DNA of 64,000 nt from Muribaculaceae bacterium (lineage in GTDB: Bacteria > Bacteroidota > Bacteroidia > Bacteroidales > Muribaculaceae): positions 1 to 64,000 of the forward strand of contig JAKVKZ010000005.1 in NCBI GenBank assembly GCA_022484565.1. The letters are read 5' to 3'. Every line of letters begins with the position of its first letter. Within the stretch, counting starts at the first letter, position 1. Shown here piece after piece: positions 4,030-31,727 of the stretch. Below the pieces are notes generated by a model that saw only the letters and a program-made list of their open reading frames with translations, had not been told where the DNA came from and did not search any database. A program made the position numbers and the translations under genes.

Positions 4030-4089
4030 CAAAATTAACCATTATCATTACTTCAATCAATAGACAAAACCATTAAATTGATGGACAAT
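4030..4089 (-). promoter_or_regulatory. Type I operator-promoter of the GH95 unit
   Basis: On the plus strand the -7 box reads CAAAATTA (4030-4037; TAATTTTG in the direction of transcription, matching TAnnTTTG). It is followed by direct repeats TAGACAAA at 4061 and TGGACAAT at 4082, exactly 21 bp apart. The distance from the end of the -7 box to the first repeat is 24 positions, identical to four other sites in the window. A repeat that overlaps the -33 region is the expected arrangement for an AraC-type HTCS activator. The regulator itself is inferred. Confidence 0.75.
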
Positions 4090-4130
4090 ATTACTATTTT
4101 TAAACATTCTGCAATTTATCCGTTTTTGTA

Positions 4131-4161
4131 TTGCTACTTATTGCATTTTAATGTAACTTTG
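4131..4161 (+). promoter_or_regulatory. Possible promoter of the GH43/GH117-like gene
   Basis: TAACTTTG at 4154-4161 matches the Bacteroidota -7 consensus TAnnTTTG, with a TTGC at 4131-4134 at about the right distance for a -33 element. It lies about 54 bp before the ATG. No type I repeat is found at the fixed distance used on the minus strand, so regulation by the same activator is uncertain. Confidence 0.4.
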
Positions 4162-4214
4162 TGAATTATCAAAATCACCTCAAAACCATTTCATAAATAT
4201 TCCAAGCAGATTAT

Positions 4215-5267
4215 ATGAAACATTTCATTTTATTAGTTTTTGCCGCTGTAATTTCGAGTAGCATTGCATATTCGGCTGACGACCTTGATTTGTCGGCAAT
4301 GATCCAACCGGCTGACTCCAGTTTGTTCATCAAAGATTCCCTTTACTACAATTGGGGCAGTTCCATTATCAAGGACAATAAAGGTCTATATCATATTTTC
4401 TATTCAAGATGGCCAAAAGAATACGGCTTTTACTCATGGCTCACCGAGTCGGAAATCGCACAGGCCACATCCACCAAACCAGAAGGGCCATACAATAACC
4501 GTCGGACTGTATTGCAAAAAAGAGACGGATATTGGGATTGCACAACAATTCACAACGTGAAAATCGTCAAATTCGGCAAGACATATTACCTCTACTACAC
4601 GTCAACAAACAGCGGAAACCTTAATCTTACAGAAAACGAAATATGTAATACCGGGAGAACAGGCTATTCAAGTAAATACTGGGGAATTTTAAGAAACAAT
4701 CAAAGAATAGGTGTGGCGTTCTCAAATAATCTTGACGGAACATGGAAGCGGCTGGAACATCCATTGATTGAACCAAGCGGTCCAATTAAAAACATTACAG
4801 TGAACCCCACAGTCTGTAAAGGTAAAGGCGGAAAATATTTCATGATTGTAAAAGGAGACGATGCTAATTCAAATAACTGGCGATTAATACAGGCAATCTG
4901 CACATCCACCAGCCCAATGGGACCTTTCAAATATGAGCAGCAGGCAGCATTCAGTGACATCCCAACCGAAGACATGTCGATGTGGTACGACAAAGGCAGG
5001 AAAAGGTTCTATTCCATTTTCCATGCCCACAACGACAACTTCATCGGATTAATAACTTCCACCGATGGAATACACTGGGTGAAAGCCAATCACTACAAAG
5101 TTTGCAATAAAGAAATATTATTAGCCGGTGGTAAAACTATTCATGTTGACAGGATGGAACGGCCAAACATCTACATAGAAAACGGAAAACCTAAAATTCT
5201 CACTTTTGCCGTGAAAAAAGGAGACTCATCCTTTATTGTGATTTATAAATTGGAAAATGCTCAGTGA
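4215..5267 (+). CDS. Secreted five-bladed beta-propeller glycosidase-like protein (GH43/GH117-like)
   Basis: Signal peptide about residues 1-20, then propeller repeats of the GH43/GH117 type. Visible elements are NWGSSIIKDNKGLYHIFYSR near the start, the blade motif GPYNNRRTVLQKRDGYWDC, KFGKTYYLYYTSTN, NQRIGVAFSNNLDGTWKR, NPTVCKGKGGKYFMIVKG and DMSMWYDKGRKRFYSIFHAH. Candidate acidic residues are in IIKD, NPTV/KGDD and DRMERP, but I cannot assign a catalytic triad with confidence. A role as an exo-acting arabinofuranosidase or galactosidase is only a suggestion. It is the only enzyme gene on the plus strand and is divergent from GH95 across a 230-bp intergenic region, converging on the 5421-7556 gene. 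The start is chosen because the signal peptide begins there. Confidence 0.6.
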   Translation: MKHFILLVFAAVISSSIAYSADDLDLSAMIQPADSSLFIKDSLYYNWGSSIIKDNKGLYHIFYSRWPKEYGFYSWLTESEIAQATSTKPEGPYNNRRTVLQKRDGYWDCTTIHNVKIVKFGKTYYLYYTSTNSGNLNLTENEICNTGRTGYSSKYWGILRNNQRIGVAFSNNLDGTWKRLEHPLIEPSGPIKNITVNPTVCKGKGGKYFMIVKGDDANSNNWRLIQAICTSTSPMGPFKYEQQAAFSDIPTEDMSMWYDKGRKRFYSIFHAHNDNFIGLITSTDGIHWVKANHYKVCNKEILLAGGKTIHVDRMERPNIYIENGKPKILTFAVKKGDSSFIVIYKLENAQ

Positions 5268-5310
5268 CAATAAATCGAAACAATTCAAAGGAATCATCTA
5301 TAAATCAAAA

Positions 5311-5337
5311 GGCTGGACGTTTTCACAACATCCAGCC
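5311..5337. terminator. Hairpin between convergent genes, shared 3' cassette
   Basis: GGCTGGACG / CATCCAGCC form a 9-bp stem with one wobble or mismatch, followed on the minus strand by CTTTTG. It lies between the convergent GH43-like and modular-protein genes and belongs to the hairpin family that follows the tail-cassette genes elsewhere in the window. Confidence 0.75.
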
Positions 5338-5420: not shown

Positions 5421-7556
5421 TTAGTCAACTTTCACCTTACTTACCTTTCCACCAGCTTTTACGATATACAGTCCTGAAGGAACATTAATTATGCTCTGGT
5501 TATTTACGCTCTTTATCATTCGGCCCATAAAGTCGTAAACCTCTGCATTATTTGCGCCAGTGATATTAATGATGCCTTCTCCGCCACTAATAGTCACATT
5601 GTCAACACTAACACCGATTAACCCTGTAGGTATTTTGCCTGCTTCATAATTAGTGGAAGCTCCATTCCCATTAGTCAGGTTAATTACAGTGTTTGTAACA
5701 TCTGTAGTGCGTTGGTCAAGCCAAACATCATCAGTGGTTGACCCTTCAGAATAACTGTTAACAATTGCACCTTCAACATCTGCTTCGTTAGCAAACGTAA
5801 CATAATTTGAAATCTCAGTAGAAAGGATCGGCATCTTCACCATTGTATAATGAGGTATAATAGCATAGTTATGTGCAATGGCCGCTTCGGCAGCAGTTAT
5901 AACGTCTGAACCTCTACCCGTACTTATCACATCTCTAAAATGTGGCGAAGTTAAATTTTTCACCCAAGCGCTCTGGCTTTCTCCATAGTAATTAACCAAC
6001 GGTGTGGTATAATCTGAAACATTTGTCGTGGCTGTTGCATTATCCAGACGTTTAAGCTCATACCATGATGCTGCACTGACGCCAGAACCATTATCTACTG
6101 CATCAATTACAGCCACAAGAGAACCGCCCATATATGATTTGTAAAGGCGCCCGTCAGCTGTCATATTAATAATATTATTTGTCAGTGAAGGGTCAGAATA
6201 CTTAACCGGAAAATAATTTGACGTTGAATAGCTGTTAGTACCATTAGTGTAATTGCAAATCAATTTAGCCGTTTCCGCTCCATAAACGCCATAAATATTC
6301 AAATCCGATTGTACTCCGTCAGTGGCTTGCCCTGTGAAGTCCTTGCCATTAATTGTCAATGTGTAGTTCATTGTATATCCGCTTGGCACATGATTATCCC
6401 ACTTGATTTCAGTTTCAGGGAATGTGATCCTATAGTTCTTTTTATAATATGTTGAAGTTGTGCTCATCTTTTGTGAACATGCACCGATTTTTGGACTGAG
6501 TCCAATAGTTGATGACGTACCACTTGGAACTGCCGATAGAGCAGTACGTGGATTTGGGTCATTATCAATCCAAATTTCATCCAGATAGCAACCCACATTA
6601 GCCCCTGCATTAGTCTTAAAATACAGTTCATCAATTTCAGAAGCAGTAATGGCGCTTGAAACATAATCAGTCCATACATCTGTTAAGACAGCACTTATGA
6701 AATTAGTTGAAGCATTAGATATCACTACAGTACCATCATCAGTAGGATTCTTTCGCATCATTACGTGCAAATATTGTCTATCGGTTGATGTTTTCACGGG
6801 CTTTAAAAATCCAATCTTAGCTCCATACCACCATTTGGTAGTATTTTTTAGAGCTGTAGGTGACATAAAGAACAAACACCTTTGAGTATTATTAGCATTT
6901 ACGCTCTCAGGGTTCTCATAATAATTACTCAAAGTATAATCAGATGATTGAGTAGATATATCAGCCTTTGCTTCCGTATCATTTTGATCTTCAAAATTAA
7001 GGATAGAATTAGTAGTGAGATATTCACTATCACTAACCCTAATATTGTCAATATAACCAAACACAGAACTTGACAATATTCGACCAGCAGGGATATTATT
7101 ATATCCCAAATCTCCTAAGAATCGTAATTGCGTAACGACTAAATCAGTAGTTCCACTATTACTTACAAGAAATCGCATATTTTGCCACTGACCTAATTGC
7201 GTGTATGGAGCAATAGGACGGATATCAGTCCCTGTTGTATTCACTCTTATACTAATATCAGGCTGCGCAGAATATTTAATTAATATATGAATAATTTTTA
7301 CTCCGCCAGCAGGAATAGTAAATGAAACAGGAATGTCATTAAGCTCATACCAATTTGTCGAGGTTCTTCCAATTTGCAGACATTTTGTTGAAGTGTTTAA
7401 TCCACCAATCGAAGGATTGTCAACAATCTGTTCTGTTGCACCATATACTGGTGTAACAGTCTGATTACTTTCAAAATCACAAAGCATCGTCTCTGTGGCA
7501 CCAGCACAGAAAGGCGATAATAAACAAACGAGAAAAAATAACTTTAAAGATTTCAT
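5421..7556 (-). CDS. Secreted modular protein X1-X2-C-D with T9SS-like tail, no catalytic domain seen
   Basis: Signal peptide about 1-20. Residues about 22-195 (X1) begin MLCDFESNQTVTPVYGAT and end with FGYIDNIRVSD. Residues about 200-350 (X2) begin SILNFEDQNDTEAKADIST and end YLDEIWIDNDPNPR. Both look like galactose-binding-type beta-sandwich modules. Region C (about 360-460, ITFPETEIKWDNHVPSGYTM) resembles Ig-like repeats, and region D contains AIIPHYTMVKMP. The last 65 residues form a T9SS-like tail (VYDFMGRMIKSV, PSGLYIVKAGGKV). X1-X2 recur in the 17164-19047 and 19306-20541 genes; C-D-tail recur in the 48-64 kb genes. Function is unknown; substrate binding on the cell surface is the best guess. 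It has its own type I operator-promoter. Confidence 0.8.
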   Translation of the reverse strand: MKSLKLFFLVCLLSPFCAGATETMLCDFESNQTVTPVYGATEQIVDNPSIGGLNTSTKCLQIGRTSTNWYELNDIPVSFTIPAGGVKIIHILIKYSAQPDISIRVNTTGTDIRPIAPYTQLGQWQNMRFLVSNSGTTDLVVTQLRFLGDLGYNNIPAGRILSSSVFGYIDNIRVSDSEYLTTNSILNFEDQNDTEAKADISTQSSDYTLSNYYENPESVNANNTQRCLFFMSPTALKNTTKWWYGAKIGFLKPVKTSTDRQYLHVMMRKNPTDDGTVVISNASTNFISAVLTDVWTDYVSSAITASEIDELYFKTNAGANVGCYLDEIWIDNDPNPRTALSAVPSGTSSTIGLSPKIGACSQKMSTTSTYYKKNYRITFPETEIKWDNHVPSGYTMNYTLTINGKDFTGQATDGVQSDLNIYGVYGAETAKLICNYTNGTNSYSTSNYFPVKYSDPSLTNNIINMTADGRLYKSYMGGSLVAVIDAVDNGSGVSAASWYELKRLDNATATTNVSDYTTPLVNYYGESQSAWVKNLTSPHFRDVISTGRGSDVITAAEAAIAHNYAIIPHYTMVKMPILSTEISNYVTFANEADVEGAIVNSYSEGSTTDDVWLDQRTTDVTNTVINLTNGNGASTNYEAGKIPTGLIGVSVDNVTISGGEGIINITGANNAEVYDFMGRMIKSVNNQSIINVPSGLYIVKAGGKVSKVKVD

Positions 7557-7653: not shown

Positions 7654-7713
7654 CAAAATTATACCATTAAAGGCATCAATAAAATGGAATAAATTACTAT
7701 TTTAATGGACTAT
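7654..7713 (-). promoter_or_regulatory. Type I operator-promoter of the 5421-7556 gene
   Basis: On the plus strand: -7 box CAAAATTA at 7654-7661, repeats TGGAATAA at 7685 and TGGACTAT at 7706. Repeat spacing is 21 bp and box-to-repeat distance 24, exactly as at the other type I sites. The rest of the 7557-7895 gap holds only the hairpin at 7821-7868. Confidence 0.75.
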
Positions 7714-7820
7714 CTTCCAATATTAACGTGAATTGAAGCAATCATTTTTAATGCGTAATTATTGTAAGCAACAAACATAGCAATTCACAGAACACCTATA
7801 CGTCTTAATAAGCATAATGA

Positions 7821-7895: not shown

Positions 7896-10700
7896 CTACT
7901 TTACAAATAAAGATTTCAATTGTGATTCGGTAACGCTTTGCGAAGGGTGAAATAATCCACCTTTCATATAATCCAAAAGGCTACTGGTCAGTTGAACGGC
8001 TTCAGGGCGATTTTGAGAATTGCTCAATAAGTCAACGCCACATAGCATCAGTGAGCCATTCCCTACTTTAAGCTCCACTATCAATCCCAATGAACGGGCA
8101 GTGAACCAATCATCAATGATGCGAACAATTGGCTTCGCATCGCCCAGTTTATGCAAAGGAAGCGCATTGCAGTGCGACATGGCATCCTGCCACTGATAAT
8201 TGCTGTGATATTCAGTCGGGAAAAGCCGAAGAGCAGGATGAGCAGGATTGCACAATATACCCAAAGTGTGCGGTGCCATGCCATTCGTCCAAAGAGTGTT
8301 CCAGAAAATGGAAGAAAAGCCTACCACCACTGAATCTTTACCCTCATTTCTAAGACTGCCAAGCACTGGACTAAGCAGCACTTTGCCTCCATCTGACAAT
8401 TTTTTCAGCACAGCCTCATTGAGCGAAGAAGCCACCATGACATCACCGTCATCAACTTTAGCATCAGGATAAGCCCAAAGGCTCCATCTGTTTTTATAAC
8501 CACCAACCTCAACAGCAAGCTCCCACTGCTGCGGAGAATCGACTTTAACCAAATGGGAAATGTTCCCCACAGGAGTTAATGCCCCAGTTGGCATATTAAC
8601 AGCTTTCATAACTCCACTGTCAATCTGACGGCCATTCTTAGCAGTAATTTTCCAGCATATCGGCAGATTCAAATCCTGTTGTGAAAACTGAGCAACCTCA
8701 ATATTTGCCCTCAGCGTGTCGCCGGAACGATAAACGAAGCGAGGCATAAGAGCCAATGGGACTATTGAATTGCAGAATTCACTATATTGCTGTGGAGTTA
8801 CGTATCCTTTTGATTTCCAAAACGGATTAAGCACGCCCACAATTGCACTGCCCTGTCCTGGGAAATCGTGCAAATCAAGCAGTTGGAAACCCCCAAAATC
8901 TTTAGTGCGAAGCGCAGCTTCAATATCAGCCTTATAGCACAAAGTCTGCAATTTGCCCGAAGCCAGCAGGAAACTGTCGGCAAGGTTAAGTAATCCATTA
9001 TCCCTCAATCTGTCCTCAAAAATATCAAAATTCTTTGCCTTTAGCACACCAGTGTACTCAGCACGCTCCTTCAAATCAGGATACACGCACCATTGACCTA
9101 TTTCATGGCTGATAGTGGGTTGAGTCTTGGAAATCATGCTGCTCCAATTGAATTCACTATTTGGCGTTTTGGAATTAATAATGCTCTTCACACCCTCACC
9201 CCATCGTTGAATCCTCGGACCTGACACGCAAAGCCAATCACATTCCGGCACAGCGGGCCAACCTGCAGCGGTGGTGAATAGAAGTCTATTTTCGTGTTGT
9301 TTCCAATAGCTGACAAAATTTCTGAGATATTTCTCACGATTCTTGCCCCAAGGCTCGTTGCCGTACGACATCAAGCAAAATGACGGATGATTGCCGTATT
9401 CATCAATAATTCTTTTGCTTTCATCATACACGAACTTGTCAATCGGCTTGCCACTACCAATATCGCCTGACCATGTGTCGCACTCAACATACAAATAAAT
9501 TCCCAATCTATCCGCAGCCCTGAATGCCGCCTCTGGCGGACACCAAGAATGGAAACGGATGTGATTCAAGCCATAAGCCTTGCAAGTCTCCATAATATGT
9601 TTCCATTGATTCTCGTCAGTGGCGGGGAATCCAGTCTTTGGGAAAATGCAACATTCCAAAGTTCCACGGAAAAAGACAGGGCGACCATTGACAGTTATCT
9701 GTGTGCCTTTTACACCAAGTTGGCGCAGCCCAAAAGTATCATTACACTCATCAGCGCCTTCATTCGTCAAAAGTTTCACGTTTAAAGAATACAAATTAGG
9801 TGAGAACTCGTCCCATAGACGGAAATCAGCGCTCATGTCATAATCGGCATTAATCACATTGTCTCCTTTAGCAATGGAAATATTCATTTTCAGCACAGGA
9901 AGTGCGGTATTGTCGGCAGCTGAAGCCGAAATCATTAATATCGCACTATTTCCGATTTTTTTATCTGATGATATGTGAAGGGTGATGTGTATCTTCTTCC
10001 TTGCAATGTCAGGCTCAATCCTGACATTGTTCACAAATGTTTTAGGACGCGCAACGAGTGACAAGTCTCCGACAATTCCATTCCAATTGGTCTGAGTGTT
10101 ATCGGATATGCTGTGAGCATCCAGTCCGGGCTGAATGTCGCCAATGCTATTGTCAACGCACAAAGTGAGATTGTATTCCTTCCCGGGCTTTAATCCGCTC
10201 AACTCATATCTATGGGGAACAGCCAATGAATTTCTGTTGCCCACTTTCTTCCCATTGAGCCAAAGCGATGTCCGCCAATGGCATCTTTCAAGATTCAATT
10301 CCACTGAACGGTTCTTCCAATTTGAAGGAACAACTATTTTCCTTTGATACCATGCCTTACCAACATAATATTTATTAGGAGTGAGCCAAAAAACGATTTT
10401 TGTATTTTCAGGAGAACGGTATTTTTTATAAAAATCACTTTCATACCAACTCTTATTCCACATCGACCCCGTCCATTTAGTGTTTACGCTAATTTCATCG
10501 CCTATTCCATTCGTATTCAATGAGCCAGGCAAAAGCAGCGAATCAGTGAACCAGCTATTGTACCATTTCTCACTCTCGCCAACATTTTTGGGGTCAAGCC
10601 TATAATTCCACTTTCCATCCAATGGTTGAACAGATGTTTGCGCAAAAGCCCCCATAAAAAGAGATGAAGCCAAGAAAAAAACTAAACAAAAATGTTTCAT
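7896..10700 (-). CDS. GH2 family glycosidase (beta-galactosidase or beta-glucuronidase-like)
   Basis: Signal peptide about 1-20, then the GH2 sugar-binding jelly roll (about 24-220, with YYVGKAWYQRKIVVPSNW and CHWRTSLWLNGKKVG), an Ig-like domain (about 225-330) and a TIM barrel (about 335-600). The acid/base is E449 in YGNEPWG and the nucleophile E533 in SHEIGQW. The barrel segment GLNHIRFHSWCPPEAAF is typical of a GH2 subgroup found in plant cell-wall PULs. About 330 residues follow the barrel without a domain I can name. Exact sugar specificity cannot be read from the sequence. It starts 21 bp after the LacZ-type GH2 gene and is probably co-transcribed with it. Confidence 0.85.
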   Translation of the reverse strand: MKHFCLVFFLASSLFMGAFAQTSVQPLDGKWNYRLDPKNVGESEKWYNSWFTDSLLLPGSLNTNGIGDEISVNTKWTGSMWNKSWYESDFYKKYRSPENTKIVFWLTPNKYYVGKAWYQRKIVVPSNWKNRSVELNLERCHWRTSLWLNGKKVGNRNSLAVPHRYELSGLKPGKEYNLTLCVDNSIGDIQPGLDAHSISDNTQTNWNGIVGDLSLVARPKTFVNNVRIEPDIARKKIHITLHISSDKKIGNSAILMISASAADNTALPVLKMNISIAKGDNVINADYDMSADFRLWDEFSPNLYSLNVKLLTNEGADECNDTFGLRQLGVKGTQITVNGRPVFFRGTLECCIFPKTGFPATDENQWKHIMETCKAYGLNHIRFHSWCPPEAAFRAADRLGIYLYVECDTWSGDIGSGKPIDKFVYDESKRIIDEYGNHPSFCLMSYGNEPWGKNREKYLRNFVSYWKQHENRLLFTTAAGWPAVPECDWLCVSGPRIQRWGEGVKSIINSKTPNSEFNWSSMISKTQPTISHEIGQWCVYPDLKERAEYTGVLKAKNFDIFEDRLRDNGLLNLADSFLLASGKLQTLCYKADIEAALRTKDFGGFQLLDLHDFPGQGSAIVGVLNPFWKSKGYVTPQQYSEFCNSIVPLALMPRFVYRSGDTLRANIEVAQFSQQDLNLPICWKITAKNGRQIDSGVMKAVNMPTGALTPVGNISHLVKVDSPQQWELAVEVGGYKNRWSLWAYPDAKVDDGDVMVASSLNEAVLKKLSDGGKVLLSPVLGSLRNEGKDSVVVGFSSIFWNTLWTNGMAPHTLGILCNPAHPALRLFPTEYHSNYQWQDAMSHCNALPLHKLGDAKPIVRIIDDWFTARSLGLIVELKVGNGSLMLCGVDLLSNSQNRPEAVQLTSSLLDYMKGGLFHPSQSVTESQLKSLFVK

Positions 10701-10721: not shown

Positions 10722-13811
<3,090 letters not shown>

Positions 13812-17041: not shown

Positions 17042-17163
17042 TGTTCAATAAACTTGTATCGAGAGCAGTATTTGATTCCAACCGCTTCTTCGTATAAAAA
17101 ATGGATGATAATCTTGTTTTCCCCTATGTATCCGGTCCTAAGCATATAGATTTGATTGTATTG

Positions 17164-19075: not shown

Positions 19076-19135
19076 CAAAAATATATTTTGCGAAATTATT
19101 GTGGAATGGATAATATTACTTTATTGATGGACAAT
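19076..19135 (-). promoter_or_regulatory. Type I operator-promoter of the SGNH gene
   Basis: On the plus strand: -7 box CAAAAATA at 19076-19083, repeats TGGATAAT at 19107 and TGGACAAT at 19128. Spacing of 21 and 24 is identical to the other type I sites. The segment after the second repeat (TTGTTCAATAAACTTG) is also identical to that at 17040-17055, so the conserved block is longer than the repeats alone. Confidence 0.8.
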
Positions 19136-19259
19136 TGTTCAATAAACTTGTGATAAACAAATTGCCTTTATTAAATGGCAATTTCGATATATTAATGCGA
19201 AAAAATCAAGTTGCCTCATAACAATATTGCAACCTTTTTTTCGTAATAGAAAAAAACAA

Positions 19260-20552: not shown

Positions 20553-23500
20553 TTAGCGTTTAACAATCAATTTTTTAGTTTCTCGAATATTATTTTCATT
20601 ATATAATACTACTACATATACACCAGGCGTCATATTGCTGGTGCTAATCTGATAAGAGTTCAGCCCATTCACATTAAAATCAGAAATGAGGCGTCCCATC
20701 AAATCATACACACGGAGTGATGTGGCTTTATCAAAGCTACAATTCACATCTTGACCTTGATTTACAGGATTCGGGTAAACTTTCATATTATCTTTTACGA
20801 TAGCCACATCCTGCAAACCGGATTTTGCCTTTGCTTTACCAACAAATGTGACAACCGATGTGCCCGACATCTTATACAATGAGCCATATTTCACAGCTGG
20901 ATAGCACTTCAGATTATCACCTTCAGCATCCGAAGTCACATAAGGCGTAAATTCAGGAATAGTGTAATCAGGATTAAAATTATTTACATCTAATTTTATG
21001 CTGACATCGCTTGTTGAAGCATTCACTGCAACAAAAACCACATTATTCGTTATTGAGTCGTAATATCCTGTCACCATCTGATTCGTTACGGCATTCTCAT
21101 CGCTCAAATTGTCGGAGCGGTCAACATCAATGCGTACCATTCCCGGACGTATAAACCTTGAATAGTTACCTAAAGTATATAACAATTTTGTAGTTCTGTA
21201 TATGCCATCGGTCTTAGTAGTGTTGAGTGCGTAAGGTATCAGGACGTACCTGTCTTCCGACGACCAGTCAGTGCCAAAAACTGTCCACCATTGCCATGCT
21301 GATGCATTGGCAAGTTTCAAATCATTATGGATAATTCGTGCCAAAGAAATGCCCGATTCCATTGGCGTTAATGTACTGTTTGTATGGCCAAATTTATATC
21401 CATCACCAAGAAGGCTATATTCAGTTTCCCAATAATCAAGACCCATTGATTTAATTCTTGTCCCTAATTGCGCTCTTTTTTGGCACAAGTCGGAAGCGCT
21501 GCCATCAGTCCAATAGCTGTGTGATGTTGGAATCATCGCCAACTTCGACAGCTTGCCAAAATAATCTGCACCACTCGGCGACCATAAATCATTAAGCTGG
21601 TCAGAAGCATAACCGCCACTCGACAACAAAGAATTAATGCTTCCAGCCTCACCCACAACTATCTTGGCATCGGTGTTATTGGACTCAAATGCAGAATTTA
21701 TGGCAACTACCACGTCATGGATTTCAGCATTAGTCCATGGGCTTCCTTCCTGTGAAATTGTACCGCCAGATGAACTTGGACTCCACTCGTATTGAGGTTC
21801 ATTCAAAGGACTGATATATCCTATTTTAATGCCATTTTCATTAAAGTGGTTCACCACCTTGGCAAGAAAATCGCCATAAGCGCCATATTTATCCGATTTC
21901 AATATCGTGCTGTGCCCATCGCCATATTCCTTGAAGCCAAGACCTCTTTTAGTGAACTGCACTGGAGGACAATTCTGCCACCCCATAATTTCGGCATGAT
22001 ATGTTTTTGCAGCTTTCTCCACGAACCATTGCTGACCGGCCTGCTTTGTCCAGTCGTAAGTTCCGTCGGCATTCAGGAAACATTCAGTCCTTGCCATGAC
22101 TGTTGAAATTCTGCTGGCATCACCTTGTTCAGCTGTGCCAGAGCCAATATTGAATCTCCATAGCGACAACCCGATGCCCTTTGGATTACCATCAGCATCA
22201 TTTTCCGTGCTTAACAGAAGCTCAGCCAAAGCATCTTTCTTTTGCTCAGGGAAATATTTGCCAACGTATGCACCGTCCCAAGCGTCAGAAGCGCCAAAAT
22301 TCGACATCGTCTGCTCTTTTTTGCTTGCATCTGCTGTAAAACTAATGTATTTGGTCTCACTGTTGTTGAAATTCACTATCTGTGCAGATGTCAATTCTTC
22401 CTTATATGAATTCAGATTGCATATTTTATACGACAACCCGTCAACAGCATCTCCGAAGCAAATATTTGCACAAGGCAGAGTATTGACATCAGTCCTTGCT
22501 ATGACCAAAGAGGATACACCATTCACATATACTCTTATGGCAGCAGTTCCTTGAGCGGTATATGTCTGAACAAAAGCTATAGAATTCCATTCATTCTCAT
22601 TCAAGCCACCTATTGCTCCTTCCTTTACCACCGTCTGTTCTCCATCAATCGATGAAACAAACTGCAAATCCCATTTACCACTTGATTTACCCATCCGCAA
22701 TCCATAAAAATCGCCTCCAGCGGATTGATATTTCATAACATATTTGCTGCTGTCGGAGCTTGCAAAAGTCGAAGGTTTAAACAAAAAGGCTACAGTAGAT
22801 TTACTATTACCAATAAACGTTTCAGGCAATTTCAGGTAGCCTCCATCGTTGATTGATAGCGCAGAACCTTTTAACGCATCTTCAACAATCGCAGTATTGC
22901 TGCTGGTCAATATCTTCGTATTTCCTTTTGTGTCGATGTAATCATTCTGTAGAGGGAAATTTGAATAAGGTATTCCTGATACGAATGGAGCAGGAACTGA
23001 GTCCTCACCTGCCATCAAAGCTTGTATCTGATTGTCCGATAGTACTGAATGGTAAATCTGTATATTGGATATACGTCCCGACATCGGATAACCATTCTCA
23101 GGTTCATTGCCGACATACCATCTGATTGTATTGAAATCCGACAATTTTGTCAGCATCATCGTTTCAGCACTTTGTACTCCATTCTTGTAAAGTTTAACCT
23201 TATTTCCACTAAATACTACGGCAAAATGATTCCAAGTTCCATCCGCAGTGTTGTCGGCCCCCACACTCTTATATATTGAATATGGCTTATTGTCTAAATT
23301 CAGAGCCGTTTGGTCATTCCAAGTAGTTTTTGTGGTGAGATAAACATTACTTTCATCAGCAGCCGCAAAACAGAAAATTCTGGCCCAGTATGAATTAATG
23401 TTGTCTGATTCCCTTTTAACCCAAAAGGAAATTGTCATATCATCATTTAATGGTGAACTTGCGAATTTCAAGCATCCTTTTTGGCTTGCCGAAAATGACA

Positions 23501-23699
23501 TCACATTGCATTTGCGGTCGGAATCGTATACCACTGTCGCGCCATTAAGCAACGTTGTAGTTGCATTGCCAAGGACGTCTTTAGCTGTACCGTCAGCAAA
23601 ATTGATGTTGGCATAGTGCTTGTATTCGCCATAATTAGTACTTGCCTTTACTGAAAAGGCAAGTACTATAAAAGCTATTACAACTAAAAATTTATTCAT
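20553..23699 (-). CDS. LamG-LamG-GH30 secreted enzyme with T9SS tail
   Basis: Signal peptide about 1-19. Two concanavalin A-like/LamG domains (about 25-230 and 235-445) carry MTISFWVKRESDN, ADGTWNHFAVVFSGNKVKLY and NEWNSIAFVQTY. The GH30 catalytic region (about 450-955) starts QTMSNFGASDAWDGAYVG, with acid/base E634 in SPLNEPQYEW and nucleophile E760 in YWETEYS. A classic T9SS type A tail (about 970-1048) has VYPNPVNQGQDV, RVYDLMGRLI and MTPGVYVVVLY. It should cleave a beta-linked galactan or related glucan-type backbone at the cell surface. It sits 9 bp after the glycan-binding lipoprotein gene in the SusC/D operon, the usual place for the surface endo-enzyme. Confidence 0.88.
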   Translation of the reverse strand: MNKFLVVIAFIVLAFSVKASTNYGEYKHYANINFADGTAKDVLGNATTTLLNGATVVYDSDRKCNVMSFSASQKGCLKFASSPLNDDMTISFWVKRESDNINSYWARIFCFAAADESNVYLTTKTTWNDQTALNLDNKPYSIYKSVGADNTADGTWNHFAVVFSGNKVKLYKNGVQSAETMMLTKLSDFNTIRWYVGNEPENGYPMSGRISNIQIYHSVLSDNQIQALMAGEDSVPAPFVSGIPYSNFPLQNDYIDTKGNTKILTSSNTAIVEDALKGSALSINDGGYLKLPETFIGNSKSTVAFLFKPSTFASSDSSKYVMKYQSAGGDFYGLRMGKSSGKWDLQFVSSIDGEQTVVKEGAIGGLNENEWNSIAFVQTYTAQGTAAIRVYVNGVSSLVIARTDVNTLPCANICFGDAVDGLSYKICNLNSYKEELTSAQIVNFNNSETKYISFTADASKKEQTMSNFGASDAWDGAYVGKYFPEQKKDALAELLLSTENDADGNPKGIGLSLWRFNIGSGTAEQGDASRISTVMARTECFLNADGTYDWTKQAGQQWFVEKAAKTYHAEIMGWQNCPPVQFTKRGLGFKEYGDGHSTILKSDKYGAYGDFLAKVVNHFNENGIKIGYISPLNEPQYEWSPSSSGGTISQEGSPWTNAEIHDVVVAINSAFESNNTDAKIVVGEAGSINSLLSSGGYASDQLNDLWSPSGADYFGKLSKLAMIPTSHSYWTDGSASDLCQKRAQLGTRIKSMGLDYWETEYSLLGDGYKFGHTNSTLTPMESGISLARIIHNDLKLANASAWQWWTVFGTDWSSEDRYVLIPYALNTTKTDGIYRTTKLLYTLGNYSRFIRPGMVRIDVDRSDNLSDENAVTNQMVTGYYDSITNNVVFVAVNASTSDVSIKLDVNNFNPDYTIPEFTPYVTSDAEGDNLKCYPAVKYGSLYKMSGTSVVTFVGKAKAKSGLQDVAIVKDNMKVYPNPVNQGQDVNCSFDKATSLRVYDLMGRLISDFNVNGLNSYQISTSNMTPGVYVVVLYNENNIRETKKLIVKR

Positions 23700-23708: not shown

Positions 23709-24812
23709 TTATTTGATTGTTACTATCAGTTGCGCTGATAGTGTATATTTAGGATCTGAATTTCCAAGAAGTGACATTGAAATGTTATAGGTCACCTGCT
23801 TAGAGGTAAAGTCCACCGACGTCACGCCACTGGTCTGATTCACTCCGCCGACTGTGACAGCATAGTTCGTACCGTCAGTCAACGATGAATTGTTTTCCAA
23901 TACCACAAACTCAGGCTTTAATGAAGTCAAATCAGTTCCGTCGGGCAAGCTCAGCACAGCATCGAATTTATCGTACGATGCTGTCTCACGTGTTATAGTG
24001 GCTTTATAGTCCGTGCCACCGACATTCACCGAGAATGATGTGATTTCCGGTATCATCAGTGCTGCCATATTATATTCCGTAGTATTGCCCGAGGCAGTCA
24101 CTACCTTGAATTTCTGTACAGCCAGTTTGCCGCTCGCATCTGTAAAGCTAACCACACGCGTAGCTGTCGAACCCGACACTAACTCGTATTCTGTATTGTC
24201 AGTCGGGTCTATCCAATATAAGTTAGCCAATGAAGAAGCTAAACGGAATGTCGTGGTCAATTTCTTCAACTTTGAAAGCAGGCTGAATTTCTTCCATGAC
24301 TCAAATATCAGCGGGCACACAACTGTGGTGCCATCAACAAACTTGCCGGCTGCCTCATACGCCGAATTTGAATATTCTGCCATGTTATAGAAATTGGAGA
24401 TGCTGAACTGGTCCAATCCACCATTGGTGGCCTTAACCACTACCGTACTCTCCGATGACTTCGACACAATCGTCCCGTCATCCTTTATTGATGAGGCTAC
24501 CCAAGTGACTTTATATTCACCAGGTTCCTGATAGGAATATGAGAACAGACCGTCAGAGGTAGCAGCATATCCTGTTGCGCCGCTTTCTCCATACACATGA
24601 CCTTTATCGCCAGTGAATATGACAAAATTCTGACCAGCACCAGTACTCTTAAAATTCACAGTCTCGAATACCTCAAAGAATGATTTATCCGAATCCTGCG
24701 CAATCTTAAAACTTGCATCAGGCTCGACATAAAGGTCATCGATATATTTGTCAGTACATCCGCAAAAAGCAGACAATACTAATAAACTCAATATTATTAC
24801 ATTGATTTTCAT
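23709..24812 (-). CDS. Surface glycan-binding lipoprotein (SusE/SusF position)
   Basis: Lipoprotein signal with cysteine in SAFCGC near residue 19. An N-terminal PKD-like domain (about 35-130) has FVIFTGDKGHVYG and SYSYQEPGEYKVTW. Further beta-rich repeats end the protein; the segment VQKFKVVTASGNTTEYNMA is typical of DUF5018-like repeats in such proteins. It follows SusD by 12 bp and precedes the GH30 gene by 9 bp. I infer it binds the polysaccharide at the outer membrane surface. Sequence similarity in this class is low, so the call rests on the lipobox, domain type and operon position. Confidence 0.8.
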   Translation of the reverse strand: MKINVIILSLLVLSAFCGCTDKYIDDLYVEPDASFKIAQDSDKSFFEVFETVNFKSTGAGQNFVIFTGDKGHVYGESGATGYAATSDGLFSYSYQEPGEYKVTWVASSIKDDGTIVSKSSESTVVVKATNGGLDQFSISNFYNMAEYSNSAYEAAGKFVDGTTVVCPLIFESWKKFSLLSKLKKLTTTFRLASSLANLYWIDPTDNTEYELVSGSTATRVVSFTDASGKLAVQKFKVVTASGNTTEYNMAALMIPEITSFSVNVGGTDYKATITRETASYDKFDAVLSLPDGTDLTSLKPEFVVLENNSSLTDGTNYAVTVGGVNQTSGVTSVDFTSKQVTYNISMSLLGNSDPKYTLSAQLIVTIK

Positions 24813-24824: not shown

Positions 24825-26570
24825 TTAATAACCGAAATTCTGCTTTATTATTCCGTTGGAAATATACACTTCTTTCTGAGGAATAGGGAAGATTTCATTA
24901 ACGCCCTTTCTGAAATATGTACCACGATGGCGCGTGCCACCGGCAGCATCCGATACTTCATGGTTCTTCATGTATTCCATCCTTTGAGAGACAGTGCCAA
25001 GACGGCATATCTCAAACCAGCGGTCGAATTCTCCTGCCATCTCTATCCTCTTCTCCTTGAGGATGGCATTCCGAATTATGTCCTGTGGAGCCAAGCTCAG
25101 CAACTTGAAGTTTGATGCTGACACCTTCTGATATTTAGCGGTGGTTTCCGAAGTAAACAACTTCTGTGCTCTTGCACGTACCTTATTTACCATTTCCACT
25201 GCATGCTCAGTGTCGCCTGTCTCATTCAGTGCCTCTGCATAAATCAACAGAGCTTCCGCATACCTCATAATCACATAATTTCTCATTCCTGCACCTCCTT
25301 CGGAAGTCGTTGTGAAATATTTTGTGAACTGAAGCATATCACCAACGCCATACCACCATCCGGAAACTTCAAATGAAACGCCATTGTCAAGTTTAAAATA
25401 CTCATTTATGTTTCTGTCGCCGATAGTGAACATCTGGCGGGGATCATTAGCAAATTGGTCAAGCAGGTCTTTCGTCGGGACAACGTATAAATCGCTCGTT
25501 TGGCTCTGGTCATTAATGTAGCCATTGAGTCTCCATTTTTCATCAACTGTTGAACCCGAACCAGAATAATCATATTGGTTTATCTCGATAAGTGGCTCTT
25601 CGCTGAATTCGCCGGAAACTCTGAAAAGTTTGTCGAAAGCATAAAGTCCGTGGGTATTGCATACATTCACGCCCGACAGCACTGTACTCTTCGTCATGTC
25701 TTTAGGCAATACCATTCTCTGGGCAAATTCATCCCACGTCTCAGTTCCGCTGTAATTAGCATCGAATTTAATCAGGTCGTTGACGCTGATGTCCTTGCCG
25801 TCGATGAAATATTTGCCTATTTCCACAGCTTCCTTCATCTTTGCAGCCTTGTCAATGGTTTTCGTTGGAACTCCACTTGAGGCTTCATATAAAAGCACCT
25901 TCATAAGCAGTCCCAATCCGCCGCCAGCGTCTATCTGTCCTGCTTGCGAAGTCTGATATCTATTCTTTTCAAGCAATAATATAGATTCCCTCAAGTCCTT
26001 TTCGATATACGCATAGGTCTCGTCAAGAGTAGAACGTGGAACAACGAGACTACCCAGTTCTTGAGTCTCCGGCTGGATGGAAACACCACCGAATGTCTTG
26101 ACAAGATTAAAGTAGAACAGTGCTCTGAGCAACTTTGCCTGGCCATAGACCATCCTTATCTCACGCTGGTTCTGCACCAAAGCCGTATCATAATCCACAT
26201 AAGGAATTGAGCGGATTATCTGGTTGACAATATTTATTCCCCTATAATTTATTTGATATCTTGATAGAATATAGGGATTATCCGTGTTGAACGTGAAATT
26301 CACAATATCACTTACATTTCCTGCTGTCACATCCTGCATAGTCCAGCAGTCATCACTTATCGCATCGCCAAAAAGCACTTCGCTGCTCTGATATTGCTGG
26401 TTCTGAAGCACATCGAATGCTGAATTCAGCGCATACCTTAAATTATTGATATTCTTGTAGAACACCACATCTTCCACATTACCTTTATGCTCTCCATCGT
26501 AAAAGTCAGAGCAGGAGCACATCATTGCTGCTATCAAGCAGACGGCAATATATATATATTTTCTTTTCAT
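24825..26570 (-). CDS. SusD/RagB family outer-membrane glycan-binding lipoprotein
   Basis: Partner lid of the adjacent SusC transporter. Lipobox MMCSC near residue 20, followed by SDFYDGEHKGNVEDVVFYKN. The TPR-rich SusD fold shows AKLLRALFYFNLVKTFGGV, the characteristic YAEALLIYAEALNETGD helix, and IRNAILKEKRIEMAGEFDRW near the C-terminus, all family hallmarks. 581 aa is a usual length. It starts 10 bp after SusC ends, in the order SusC-SusD-lipoprotein-GH30-X1X2. Confidence 0.95.
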   Translation of the reverse strand: MKRKYIYIAVCLIAAMMCSCSDFYDGEHKGNVEDVVFYKNINNLRYALNSAFDVLQNQQYQSSEVLFGDAISDDCWTMQDVTAGNVSDIVNFTFNTDNPYILSRYQINYRGINIVNQIIRSIPYVDYDTALVQNQREIRMVYGQAKLLRALFYFNLVKTFGGVSIQPETQELGSLVVPRSTLDETYAYIEKDLRESILLLEKNRYQTSQAGQIDAGGGLGLLMKVLLYEASSGVPTKTIDKAAKMKEAVEIGKYFIDGKDISVNDLIKFDANYSGTETWDEFAQRMVLPKDMTKSTVLSGVNVCNTHGLYAFDKLFRVSGEFSEEPLIEINQYDYSGSGSTVDEKWRLNGYINDQSQTSDLYVVPTKDLLDQFANDPRQMFTIGDRNINEYFKLDNGVSFEVSGWWYGVGDMLQFTKYFTTTSEGGAGMRNYVIMRYAEALLIYAEALNETGDTEHAVEMVNKVRARAQKLFTSETTAKYQKVSASNFKLLSLAPQDIIRNAILKEKRIEMAGEFDRWFEICRLGTVSQRMEYMKNHEVSDAAGGTRHRGTYFRKGVNEIFPIPQKEVYISNGIIKQNFGY

Positions 26571-26580: not shown

Positions 26581-29500
26581 TTAAAAATCCATTATAACGC
26601 CCATCGTATACGACCTTGATTGCGGATACACACCTTCGTCTATTCCCATGAACAGATTGCTTGAAGTGCCGACCTCAGGATCCATACCTGAATATTTCGT
26701 GAAAGTCAGTGGATTCGTCACGGTTAAATACGCCTTAAACGATGAAAGGAACTTGCTCTTTTCACACAATGCCTTAGGCAACGTGTAAGTAAGCTGTATC
26801 TGTTTTAAGCGCAGGTAGGAGCCACTTTCAATATAAAAATCGGAAGTTCTGAAATTTATCTCGTTTCTCGTTGGGTCAGTGCTCGGTGCAGGAACTGTAC
26901 CTCCCACATTTGGTCCCCAATGGTCTCTGTATGTCGTTCCCTGACCGCTTGTTGAAGGGCGGTAAACCTTTGAGAAATAATCGCTGGCTGAATTGGAAAA
27001 ACCGCCATTAGCCCAAGAACCGCCACTGTTTACACAAGAATACATGAAATATTTGGTAGCATTGAAAATGCTGTTGCCCTGCTCTCCATTGAAGAATAAT
27101 GACAAGTCAAAGTCCTTATATCCCAAATCGATATTAAAGGAATAGTACCAGCTTGGCTGCGGATTTCCTAAATATGTCTTGTCGTTGTCATCAATGACGC
27201 CATCCTTATTGACATCCACAAATTTCATGTCGCCGGGATTGTATTTATTATTTGAAGCGAATGTCGGCACTAATGCGTTGCCGTCGGCATCAAAATCCGA
27301 TTCTTTCATAAGTCCGTCTGTCTTCCATCCATAGAAACAGGCGATTGGTGCTCCCACTGTAGTCTTATTTGTATAACCCAAATTATTAGGACTGTTCAAA
27401 TAGCCACCGTAAATAGGCTCGCCTCTTGACCCTAATTTAGTCACCCTGTTCTTCACATAAGTTGCGTTTCCGCCAACTTCATAGCGGAATGAACCGATAT
27501 TGTCCTTATAGCTGGCTTGGAATTCAAATCCCTTATTCCTTACGCTGCCCGCATTCTGCATAGGCGTGTTGGGGTAACCGGCCATATATACGATAGGAAC
27601 AGCAATAAGCATATCCTTGGTGTCCTTTATGAAGAAATCCAAAGTTGTTGACAATCTGTTCTTCAGAATGTTGAAATCCAAACCTGCGCTGTAGGATTGG
27701 GTTCTCTCCCATTTTATATTCGGATTGCCGTATTGGGTAATTGAATATGCAGGTACGATTGATGGCACTCCTGTGCCGTAAATATACTGGCTTCCACTGG
27801 ATGACACCACAGTCTTATAGGCATAGTTGCCAATTTTGTTGTTTCCAAGCTGTCCCCAGCCCAATCTTACCTTCAACAATGAAATCCATTTGTATGGCTT
27901 CAAGAATGATTCTTCATTCAACTTCCATCCTATGGATGCGCTTGGGAAATATCCCCAACGGTTGGTCTTCGCAAACCTTGAGCAGGCATCAGCACGGAAA
28001 TTGACCTGCAACAGATATTTCTCAGCATAGTTGTAGCTTACACGTCCAAGCAAACTGAATGTGTTGCAGCCTTCTGTATATCCGCTTACTGCCCTTCCGT
28101 ATTGAGCAAAAGCCATGGCATCAAAGGAGTCATCGTAGCCGCCGTAGCCTGTTCCTGAAAAACTGTTGACATCAGTCTTATATTTTTCCATTGTTTGACC
28201 GACTGTCAAATCCAAATGGTTCTTACCGAATACATTGCTGTAAGTGGCGATGTTTTCCCAGCTGAAATTAGTTGTAGTCACTGGATAACGTGACACTGTA
28301 TATTGTATCGTTCCAACTGCCCTGTCGTTACCATTATATTTATTGAAGCCATCAATGTCAGAATTGTATGAGGTGTAGCTTGCACGAGTCACGAACTTAA
28401 GGCCCTTATAAATATCCCATGTCAAGTTCAACTGTCCCAAAAGGTTATTGTTGTACCAGTCATACGTTGCACGTCTTAACATCTCCACTGGAGTGCTCCA
28501 GTTATAGCTTCCTGAAACTGGGTCAATGATTGGGGTGAACGGGTTATAATCAATGGCTGTTTTCACAACGCCCCATTGTCCTTCAGGCACAACCGTTCTG
28601 TCCTCTCTTGAATATATAAGGTTTGCACCTACATTCACCTTATCACTAAGTTTCATATTAATCTTCATGTCAAGCGACTTACGCTGATAATCGGATTGCT
28701 TGATAATACCGTCAGTTCCCTGAATGCCTCCGCTCAGGTAATAGTTGAATCCTCCAGTGTTACCGGAAATCGACAAGTTTGCCTTGTATTGTGATGCGTT
28801 TTGTGTCACTTCGTCCCACCATGATGAAGGACATGTCTTAGCCAATGCCACTGCTGCTGAATTCATCACAAGATTACCTGCTGAATTCAATTCAGTCATA
28901 TTGCCCTGATTCTGCACATAGTCGCTGAATTTCGCATAATCAGTCTGCGACATCACGTCAGGCTTGTTTAAAACATTTTGTATTCCGTAATAACCACTGA
29001 AATTAATATCATATTTCTTGCTTCCGCCCTTTTTGGTAGTCACAAGTATTACACCGTTTGCGGCACGTGAACCGTAAATGGCAGCTGAGGCTGCATCTTT
29101 CAGCACCTCTATTGATTCTATATCATCGCTCGACAGATAATCAATCTTGTCCATTGCGATTCCGTCAACCACATATAATGGCTCAGAATTATTCACTGTG
29201 CCCATTCCTCGAATTCTGATTGATGTACTTGAACCAGGCGCGCCTGAATTTCTCACTACCTCCACACCCGACGCTTTTCCTTGCAGCGCCTGTGCCACTG
29301 AAGTCGTCGGCATACTCTGTATTTCTCCTGATTTGATGGAGGAAACTGCACCGGTCAAGTCGCTCTTCTTTTGCACACCATAACCAATGACAACTACTTC
29401 ATCAAGTTCAGAGGATGTCTCGAATAAGGTTATCTGCAGCGCGTTGCCGCCTGCTTTCCAGTCCACATGCTGTGTCTTGTAGCCCACATAGCTTATCGTC

Positions 29501-29703
29501 ACCTTGGCTGTCTGGGCTGTTGTAGTCATAGCAAATTTACCGTCTAAGTCCGTCACTGTCTGTAATTTCTGCCCTTCTACCTTGACATTGGCTCCGATTA
29601 TCGGCTCATGAGTTGAACCGTCAATCACAGTTCCAGCTATCTCGGCTCCATAAACCGGCAACAGACTAATAAAACATAATATTACCAGTATTATTCTGTT
29701 CAT
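26581..29703 (-). CDS. SusC/RagA TonB-dependent oligosaccharide transporter
   Basis: Imports oligosaccharides across the outer membrane with SusD. Signal peptide about 1-19, carboxypeptidase-regulatory-like domain about 21-100 (GTVIDGSTHEPIIGANVKV), then a plug (VVVIGYGVQKKSDLTGAV, ALQGKASGVEVVRN, IRIRGMGTVNNSEPLYVVDG) and a 22-strand barrel to the C-terminus (SRSYTMGVIMDF). 1040 aa is a normal size. There is no operator or good -7 box in the 75 bp upstream; instead a strong hairpin at 29718-29764 separates it from the ELWxxDGT gene. It is probably expressed by read-through from the promoter at 31668. Confidence 0.96.
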   Translation of the reverse strand: MNRIILVILCFISLLPVYGAEIAGTVIDGSTHEPIIGANVKVEGQKLQTVTDLDGKFAMTTTAQTAKVTISYVGYKTQHVDWKAGGNALQITLFETSSELDEVVVIGYGVQKKSDLTGAVSSIKSGEIQSMPTTSVAQALQGKASGVEVVRNSGAPGSSTSIRIRGMGTVNNSEPLYVVDGIAMDKIDYLSSDDIESIEVLKDAASAAIYGSRAANGVILVTTKKGGSKKYDINFSGYYGIQNVLNKPDVMSQTDYAKFSDYVQNQGNMTELNSAGNLVMNSAAVALAKTCPSSWWDEVTQNASQYKANLSISGNTGGFNYYLSGGIQGTDGIIKQSDYQRKSLDMKINMKLSDKVNVGANLIYSREDRTVVPEGQWGVVKTAIDYNPFTPIIDPVSGSYNWSTPVEMLRRATYDWYNNNLLGQLNLTWDIYKGLKFVTRASYTSYNSDIDGFNKYNGNDRAVGTIQYTVSRYPVTTTNFSWENIATYSNVFGKNHLDLTVGQTMEKYKTDVNSFSGTGYGGYDDSFDAMAFAQYGRAVSGYTEGCNTFSLLGRVSYNYAEKYLLQVNFRADACSRFAKTNRWGYFPSASIGWKLNEESFLKPYKWISLLKVRLGWGQLGNNKIGNYAYKTVVSSSGSQYIYGTGVPSIVPAYSITQYGNPNIKWERTQSYSAGLDFNILKNRLSTTLDFFIKDTKDMLIAVPIVYMAGYPNTPMQNAGSVRNKGFEFQASYKDNIGSFRYEVGGNATYVKNRVTKLGSRGEPIYGGYLNSPNNLGYTNKTTVGAPIACFYGWKTDGLMKESDFDADGNALVPTFASNNKYNPGDMKFVDVNKDGVIDDNDKTYLGNPQPSWYYSFNIDLGYKDFDLSLFFNGEQGNSIFNATKYFMYSCVNSGGSWANGGFSNSASDYFSKVYRPSTSGQGTTYRDHWGPNVGGTVPAPSTDPTRNEINFRTSDFYIESGSYLRLKQIQLTYTLPKALCEKSKFLSSFKAYLTVTNPLTFTKYSGMDPEVGTSSNLFMGIDEGVYPQSRSYTMGVIMDF

Positions 29704-29717
29704 TTTTATTGAAAATT

Positions 29718-29764
29718 AACAAGGCATCTGCATATCAATTCAATATGACCACAGATGCCTTGTT
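29718..29764 (-). terminator. Hairpin between the ELWxxDGT gene and SusC
   Basis: AACAAGGCATCTG pairs perfectly with CAGATGCCTTGTT across a 21-nt loop. It lies between the stop codon at 29779 and the SusC start at 29703 and fills most of the gap. As SusC has no visible promoter of its own, this may be a partial terminator or a processing site that sets a step in expression. Confidence 0.7.
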
Positions 29765-29778
29765 TGATTATGTTCTGA

Positions 29779-31614
29779 TTATTTCTTTATTATCTTTTGT
29801 GAAACCACTTCACCATCAGACAATTTTACCATAACAATGTAAAGTCCGCTCTGCAATGAAGCCACGTTGATGGTGTTTACTGCGTCTGCTGATGCCAATA
29901 CTCTGCCGTCCAATCCCATTACGGATATGTTCTTGACAGATTTCGTTGCTTTCACATTCACCATGTCAGTTACAGGATTTGGATAAACTTTAATTGATGT
30001 TGCAACGTTTACGCGTTGAACTCCAGAGTTCGGCTGCATCTCATAAAGTTTGCCGTCAACTGTAGCTACGAAATACAGATTGCCATTCAAGTTAACCAGA
30101 CTGTATGGAGCACCGTTACCAGTAAAATCATATACTTTGTAAGGGTCAGTGTCGTTACTGTCCATGCACCAAAGTTCAGTATTGTTGTCTGCATCAGTAG
30201 CAACAAAATACAATTGAGTACCAACTTGAGTGTAATACTTTGCATGATCAGAATAATTAGGTGTACCGATAGTCAGCTGTGTAGGTGACCATGTAGCAAG
30301 ATATGCGGCTGTGTCGATTTTTGCAACATCCATTGAAGATACGTCAATTCTCCACATGCTATATCCTGAGTACAAATCCTGCGACATGTTCGGTTGCAAG
30401 TGGTAAGTGCCGTTTGCATTGAAATAGACCATTCCATTATAAGGGCCTTCCCATTCCTGTGGCCAGCTTGGTTGCTTTGATGAAGGGAATCCCCATGGAT
30501 TTATATCCATTACTTGCTTAGGATTAACACCCTTTACAAATGGTTGATTAAGATCCATAACGCATGGCTCCACACTGTGAACACCATCATCAGCTCTGAA
30601 TAATACCAGATGGTCATTCAAAGGTAATGTCCATGCAAATTGCGTTTGAATTGGAGAGCCACCGTCTGAACCTGGCGCGAAATCAACGCCAATCCAATTT
30701 GTGCCTGCGGCAGTACCATCACTAACCCAAATTTCACTGCCGATGTCACCATTCACACCAAGACTTGCATCATTTGTAACCTCAGATACTGTCTCTGCTC
30801 TGAAGATAGCTTTATTTCCAACTGCACAAAGCCATTGTATTGTGGCAGGTTGTGTCTTTGCCCATCCAGTAAATGCTTTAGGATTGATGTCCTTTATGGC
30901 CTTAGTGCCTTCTTTTGTACCATCTGTTACCCACAGAGTCTCATTCATGTCGGCTGAAAAACCAGGGAACACGGCTTTGTCACCTATTACGGCAAAATGT
31001 CCGCGGTTGCTGTCCCATCCAGTTTCACGTGTTGGGGTGTCACCTATTCTTACTGTTCCAGTTGCTGTTCCATCGCTTACCCACAACCATTTCTCTGGCT
31101 TCGTACTGTCAACCACAGGAACCAATTCGCTCTCGTCATCCATTGCAAAGAATAATACTTTGCTTCCAAAAGGCTCAATGAATATAGGAGTTGAACTTCC
31201 TGTTCCGGCATAGATGTCCTTTACCATGGTAGTACCACTTTCAGTACCATCGCTTACCCATAATTCTGTTCCTGCATCAGGAGTAGTGGCTGCAAAGAAG
31301 CATTTGTCACCTACTAAGCAAAGGTATTGAGGATTGGATCCATCTGCACCTGGCACAATGTCTTTCACCATTTTCGTGCCGGCTGCTGTACCGTCGCTAA
31401 CCCATAATTCATCACCTGCAGCGTCGGTTTTTGCAGTGAAGAAAATCTTGCTGGCATTGCTTACCAGTCTTTTGTCATTGTTTAGTGACGCTCCTTCTTT
31501 CGAAGTTACCGTTACTCCGTCTGGTGTGATGGAAGCAACAGTCTGGTTTACACCATTTACACTTATCGACGTTGCCGCCAACAATGCAAATAATAAGTAA
31601 TTTTTAGCTTTCAT
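29779..31614 (-). CDS. ELWxxDGT-repeat secreted protein with T9SS tail
   Basis: Signal peptide about 1-21. At least five copies of an ELWVSDGTxxGT repeat are spread through residues about 70-300: ELWVSDGTAAGTKMV, ELWVSDGTESGTTMV, WLWVSDGTATGTVRI, TLWVTDGTKEGTKAI, EIWVSDGTAAGTNWI. A degenerate copy, ELWCMDSND, is near residue 480. The repeats resemble blades of a propeller. The C-terminal T9SS tail has VYPNPVTDMVNVKATKSV, VMGLDGRVLASAD and LQSGLYIVMVKLSDGE. No enzyme motif was seen. It is the first gene behind a type I operator-promoter and directly precedes the SusC operon. A surface adhesin or scaffold role is a guess. Confidence 0.82.
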   Translation of the reverse strand: MKAKNYLLFALLAATSISVNGVNQTVASITPDGVTVTSKEGASLNNDKRLVSNASKIFFTAKTDAAGDELWVSDGTAAGTKMVKDIVPGADGSNPQYLCLVGDKCFFAATTPDAGTELWVSDGTESGTTMVKDIYAGTGSSTPIFIEPFGSKVLFFAMDDESELVPVVDSTKPEKWLWVSDGTATGTVRIGDTPTRETGWDSNRGHFAVIGDKAVFPGFSADMNETLWVTDGTKEGTKAIKDINPKAFTGWAKTQPATIQWLCAVGNKAIFRAETVSEVTNDASLGVNGDIGSEIWVSDGTAAGTNWIGVDFAPGSDGGSPIQTQFAWTLPLNDHLVLFRADDGVHSVEPCVMDLNQPFVKGVNPKQVMDINPWGFPSSKQPSWPQEWEGPYNGMVYFNANGTYHLQPNMSQDLYSGYSMWRIDVSSMDVAKIDTAAYLATWSPTQLTIGTPNYSDHAKYYTQVGTQLYFVATDADNNTELWCMDSNDTDPYKVYDFTGNGAPYSLVNLNGNLYFVATVDGKLYEMQPNSGVQRVNVATSIKVYPNPVTDMVNVKATKSVKNISVMGLDGRVLASADAVNTINVASLQSGLYIVMVKLSDGEVVSQKIIKK

Positions 31615-31667
31615 TTGTTTAATGTTTAAAGGTAATACTTACGTTTACTATTTAAAGTTTAACTATA

Positions 31668-31727
31668 CAAAAATACGCTTACCCTGACTTTTAAAAAATG
31701 GACAATAACACTATTTTGATGGATAAT
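31668..31727 (-). promoter_or_regulatory. Type I operator-promoter of the ELWxxDGT-SusC/D unit
   Basis: On the plus strand: -7 box CAAAAATA at 31668-31675, repeats TGGACAAT at 31699 and TGGATAAT at 31720 (21 bp apart, box-to-repeat distance 24). It probably drives the ELWxxDGT gene and, by read-through, the five-gene SusC operon. Confidence 0.8.

Follow-up and report, generated by a model that had tools for sequence, protein, structure and literature searches.

A rigid direct-repeat operator in a Muribaculaceae PUL that is probably read by a one-component AraC protein

The window considered here, i.e., the whole stretch of 64,000 nucleotides that was analysed, lies on contig C5 of a Muribaculaceae MAG (2.95 Mb in 93 contigs, 82.5% complete). 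Its left half is occupied by genes for polysaccharide degradation and uptake. Five of their promoters carry the same operator, here called type I, followed by the box TAnnTTTG:

4030-4098, minus strand: type I operator and TAnnTTTG, leading to GH95 (1567-3984) and a SASA-type esterase (64-1545)
7654-7722, minus strand: type I operator and TAnnTTTG, leading to a 711-aa protein of unknown family (5421-7556), for which no Pfam family was found
16982-17050, minus strand: type I operator and TAnnTTTG, leading to a sulfatase/GH30-like fusion (13950-16835), a LacZ-like GH2 (10722-13805) and a further GH2 (7896-10700)
19076-19144, minus strand: type I operator and TAnnTTTG, leading to a GDSL-lipase-like esterase (17164-19047)
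31668-31736, minus strand: type I operator and TAnnTTTG, leading to a T9SS-tail protein (29779-31614), a SusC-like protein (26581-29703) and a SusD-like protein (24825-26570)
The last run continued, minus strand: a 367-aa protein (23709-24812), GH30_2 (20553-23699) and a 411-aa protein (19306-20541)

A first-pass annotation of this DNA had reported the five sites with fixed spacings, and it was exact: at 4030, 7654, 16982, 19076 and 31668 the plus strand invariably reads CAAAnnTA, 23 bp, an octamer, 13 bp, and the second octamer. The direct-repeat operator of two helical turns claimed there is likewise borne out, since the tandem repeat has a period of 21 bp at all five sites (consensus ..GTAATATTGTCCAT..). 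In gene orientation, i.e., on the minus strand, the consensus becomes A.AGTAA.ATTGTCCATcAA...AGTaatATTgTCCATT - 21 bp - TAnnTTTG; the repeat unit has the core ATTGTCCAT, extended to AGTAA.ATTGTCCATcAA, and the box starts 23 bp past the proximal octamer. The relaxed geometry CAAAnnTA-N23-TRGA-N17-TRGA is met five times on the plus strand of the window and never on its minus strand; 40 first-order Markov surrogates contained no match. Scored with an operator PWM, the five sites reach 43-52 and the sixth-ranking position of the window 11. When the matrix was built from four sites and applied to the fifth, each site stayed among the window's top five.

Repeats of this kind could, of course, be remnants of duplicated promoters or mobile DNA and have no regulatory meaning. 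The sites at 16982 and 19076 are in fact near-identical also upstream of the operator and may stem from a common recent duplication. The remaining ones, however, have only the functional columns in common; their flanks and spacers differ, and the spacer columns of the matrix hold almost no information. Since the identical geometry also turns up in many other genera (see below), we consider duplication a most improbable explanation of the set.

A whole-genome scan had been named beforehand as the test that could overturn the proposal, and the proposal withstood it. The scan was performed on the entire draft genome with the operator alone, the -7 box being left out of the query, and yielded 11 sites on three contigs, 8 of them perfect and 3 with two mismatches. 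Five are those of the window; six lie on two other contigs:

C32:18290, type I site
C32:20674, type I site
C32:488, type I site pointing off the contig end
C32:8901, type I site
C32:18111, type I site
C76:3654, type I site upstream of a GH106 gene

TAnnTTTG is found at the identical offset in all 11, as compared with none of 12 weaker, three-mismatch matches taken as background. This includes 6/6 sites outside the window, where the box had been predicted and would occur by chance with a frequency of about 4e-4 each. The full pattern of operator plus box gives 11 matches in the genome, a reversed control pattern none. The genes downstream of the sites on C32 encode a T9SS-tail protein with two GH30 enzymes, an MFS sugar porter, GH92 and GH29, and behind the porter gene are those of a DUF5107-TPR protein, GH2 and GH27. 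Thus, 10 of the 11 sites open onto clusters for carbohydrate degradation or sugar transport, and the eleventh exits its contig. The idea of a readable regulon holds in that the 11 sites lead to a gene set; the regulon is larger than had been assumed, comprising at least 11 sites on three contigs. No overlap of contig ends was found that would link the left ends of C5, C32 and C76 and the right end of C32.

The box TAnnTTTG corresponds to the -7 element of Bacteroidetes promoters, the consensus of sigma-ABfr (PMC7366714). All 11 type I sites have this element, and none of their promoter spacers contains the TTTG that a sigma-ABfr promoter has at the -33 distance, which fits dependence on an activator. 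Some 20 bp separate the end of the proximal half-site from the -7 box, so that the placement directly upstream of the core promoter, regarded as activator-type in the first-pass annotation, finds support. A precedent is araI1-I2 of Escherichia coli, where the tandem half-sites are 21 bp apart and the proximal one adjoins the core promoter. By analogy, the layout would suit an activator that replaces the upstream promoter contact.

The best candidate for such an activator is encoded on C32:

C32:22047-22940: one-component AraC-family regulator of 297 aa, with AraC_binding domain and double HTH

Its N-terminal sugar domain matches AraC_binding (PF02311) with 55.9 bits, its C-terminal double HTH matches HTH_18 with 64 bits and HTH_AraC with 71 bits, all above the cut-offs. 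The gene sits 232 bp behind that of GH29, which has a perfect type I site in its promoter; within 4 kb of the regulator gene there are three type I sites. Being on a different contig of an 82.5% complete MAG, the regulator owes its membership in this genome to the binning and to the common operator.

The linkage between operator and regulator is conserved. In 148 related genomes, searched twice and independently for the type I pattern and for the AraC protein, both searches coincide on eight contigs, where the motif lies 54-103 bp from a divergent AraC homologue (44-48% identical where matched). Within the same family, the motif is present in 10 of 12 genomes that have the AraC protein and in 9 of 76 that lack it (Fisher p ~1e-6). 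A further set comprised 80 named loci of AraC homologues across Bacteroidales, each up to 12.9 kb, from Alistipes, Parabacteroides, Bacteroides, Mediterranea, Phocaeicola, Xylanibacter, Segatella, Paludibacter, a MAG labelled Flavobacterium and others. When scored with our genome's own matrix alone, 41/80 loci as a whole exceed the 99th percentile of a column-permuted control, and the top-scoring position of a locus repeatedly falls on the strand opposite to araC, 110-150 bp ahead of it. A matrix refined on these same 80 loci detects the operator within 400 bp upstream of araC in 54 of them, and in no case on the strand of araC itself (1% in the column-permuted control). There, it usually precedes an MFS sugar transporter. 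About a third of the loci are without a clear site; some of these contain diverged paralogues or other gene arrangements. A flexible scan over 99 combinations of spacings gave 22 matches at (21, 22), 6 at (22, 22), 2 at (22, 21) and 2 elsewhere, against 0 in the reversed control. This concentration ties the spacing to the regulator itself; a spacing of 22 is used by several relatives, with Prevotellaceae among those inspected.

The first-pass annotation had assigned the operator to an AraC-domain HTCS, and there are two such proteins on the contig. The right half of the window also has repeats of its own, here called type II (GAAACG-N15-GRAACG, with GRAACA as the last half in one copy; 21-bp period, 30 bp to TAnnTTTG):

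55129-59172, plus strand: HTCS with propeller sensor, HisKA, HATPase, REC and AraC-type HTH
C5:67720-71796 (L062:3720-7796): second HTCS, 81% identical to the first, with 70 of 90 HTH residues identical
47937-47963, minus strand: type II operator before the gene 46572-47912 and a run of susC, susD, GH30, GH27 and GH2
52196-52222, minus strand: type II operator before a GH30_2 protein (48157-52011)
54913-54939, minus strand: type II operator before the gene 52488-54740, within the stretch between it and the divergent HTCS gene
54994-55020, minus strand: a further type II repeat pair within the same intergenic region, having no TAnnTTTG at type II distance on the minus strand

All four copies are located in the right half, three of them with TAnnTTTG at the 30-bp distance, and type II is probably the operator of the HTCS 55129-59172. 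In the divergent promoter of the second HTCS, yet another direct repeat of 21 bp is found. Two HTCSs that are 81% identical and have different repeats offer a natural pair for studying shifts in HTCS operator specificity.

Some other features of this half should be mentioned in passing. The 27-bp type II pattern is also matched, identically, in the coding DNA of two large proteins (52978 and 62797, plus strand), an example of a chance match. A long inverted repeat, CATATTCTTATCC...GGATAAGAATATG, lies between the susC-like gene and the gene upstream of it; its diverged counterpart is found a further gene upstream (45072-45165, 46426-46571). A hairpin like GGCTGGATGCTGTGA...TCACAGCATCCAGCC, flanked by TTTTAGTTGATAATG, recurs between genes at about 48040-48110, 52380-52420, 59240-59290 and 59860-59920; it is possibly a repeated terminator.

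Binding of the type I operators by an HTCS, most simply by 55129-59172 or its 81%-identical neighbour, is an obvious thought. In Bacteroides thetaiotaomicron, HTCS operators have been predicted to be direct repeats of 21 bp on average (PMC3878776), and an HTCS shares the PUL with the type I sites. HTCS and AraC also have the same kind of HTH, which makes cross-regulation by an HTCS conceivable on sequence. The type I set, indeed, shows the direct repeat of about 21 bp expected of an HTCS regulon; what it does not show is linkage to an HTCS gene. Over all 16 HTCS loci, those of homologues included, the highest type I score found up to about 1.5 kb from the gene is 5.7 (threshold 14), and both HTCS promoters bear the different 21-bp repeats just described. 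The homologues in relatives are about 30% identical, and none of the matches listed shares its contig with the type I pattern, whereas AraC homologues are found at the distances given above. We therefore hold control by an HTCS to be unlikely and abandon that assignment: the regulator of type I is most likely a soluble AraC protein. The postulated AraC-type DNA-binding domain is retained, yet as part of a one-component protein. Across Bacteroidales, the operator tracks this soluble regulator, not an HTCS.

Another AraC-family regulator of the genome might also be in charge, e.g., C76:6772-7647 (L045), which has an AraC-type HTH and shares its contig with one type I site, 3.1 kb away. It has, however, no type I site within 1.5 kb and escaped detection in the homologue search with the C32 regulator (E 1e-20), and the conserved partner of the operator in dozens of other genomes is the C32-type AraC. 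The other AraC-type regulator loci of the genome, when scanned, likewise had no type I site, except for a borderline score of 14.3 at L050. Such a substitute is thus very unlikely. We estimate at roughly 85% the probability that the type I regulon is controlled by the cytoplasmic one-component AraC protein of C32 through these activator operators. Its binding to, and activation at, the type I sites would be the natural reading of the sequences.

The sensor domain of the C32 protein provides a hint at the signal. It matches that of BgaR (PDB 6nwh; E 9e-13 by profile, 4e-8 by single sequence), a lactose regulator of Clostridium perfringens with lactose as ligand. This is the closest solved sensor domain, at low identity and with the sensor domain alone aligned. 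In most cases, the genes of the AraC homologues diverge from that of an MFS sugar porter about 51-69% identical to the C32 porter, and other site-bearing or neighbouring genes in relatives encode GH2, GH35, GH36 and aldose 1-epimerase. Galactose or a galactoside would be the simplest signal and is, in our opinion, somewhat favoured. The presence of GH92, GH29 and GH106 in the regulon leaves the effector sugar less firmly fixed; it may also be L-arabinose, fucose or a different product of that polysaccharide. A candidate for a pathway enzyme is the following protein of about 1,100 aa:

L024:13391-16648 and homologues: DUF5107-TPR protein, conserved beside the regulon's MFS porter in many genera

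In relatives it often follows the porter, as on C32. No functional paper on DUF5107 was found in the literature searched.

The mechanism may be pictured as follows. Galactose or a small galactoside would be taken up by the MFS sugar porter, itself under the control of the regulator, and act as inducer. Two AraC protomers would then line up in tandem along the same face of the helix, on half-sites 21 bp apart, and the proximal one would occupy the place of the -33 contact and recruit RNA polymerase, as AraC does at araI1-I2. Induction should switch on the left half of the window, with its SusCD pair, GH30, GH2, GH95, sulfatase and esterases, and simultaneously the C32 genes (two GH30, GH27, GH2, DUF5107-TPR, MFS porter, GH92, GH29) and GH106 on C76.

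In a wider sense, there may be a Bacteroidales-wide regulon of a galactose(-ide)-responsive one-component AraC protein, with a rigid 21(22)-bp operator, that holds half of a large PUL including its SusCD pair, while an HTCS runs the other half via a similar second operator; we would give this picture an even chance. If true, a cytoplasmic sensor of the end product and a periplasmic sensor of oligosaccharides would divide one PUL locus between them. The promoters become a defined regulon with a regulator gene, which tells which sugar-degradation genes switch on together. For regulon prediction, it also matters that a 21-bp direct repeat ahead of a PUL promoter in Bacteroidetes does not suffice to indicate an HTCS. 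Cultured relatives for testing are Bacteroides ilei, Mediterranea massiliensis, Phocaeicola massiliensis and Parabacteroides goldsteinii.

The type I regulon resembles known systems in several respects. It has the half-site spacing and the domain order of E. coli AraC, and the best NCBIfam match of the C32 protein is the AraC model; its score for the equivalog NF007860, however, is 85.6 bits against a cut-off of 208, and its promoters, unlike that of E. coli, have the Bacteroidetes sigma and -7 box. For B. thetaiotaomicron, direct-repeat operators with an average of 21 bp between the sites have been predicted for 16 HTCSs (Ravcheev et al. 2013, PMC3878776). Repeats of about 21 bp, an AraC-type HTH and a position upstream of PUL genes are common to both cases, but those operators were assigned to membrane HTCS or SusR-like proteins and type I goes together with a soluble AraC protein of the one-component kind. 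In the same paper's table of other regulators, the AraC family is represented by RhaR (rhamnose) alone. Our literature search for AraC regulators of galactan PULs in gut Bacteroidetes gave only the Zobellia case and reviews, and no description of the C32-type AraC family, its operator or its regulon was found, most subscription journals being outside the search. In Zobellia galactanivorans, CgrA (ZGAL_3159) is an AraC-family positive regulator of the carrageenan regulon (PMC5698469); there, too, a one-component AraC protein governs a galactan-type PUL regulon with dispersed genes, among them a distal susCD pair. The architecture of 21-bp repeats and an AraC-controlled carrageenan regulon are, thus, already known, and the type I AraC regulon joins that kind.
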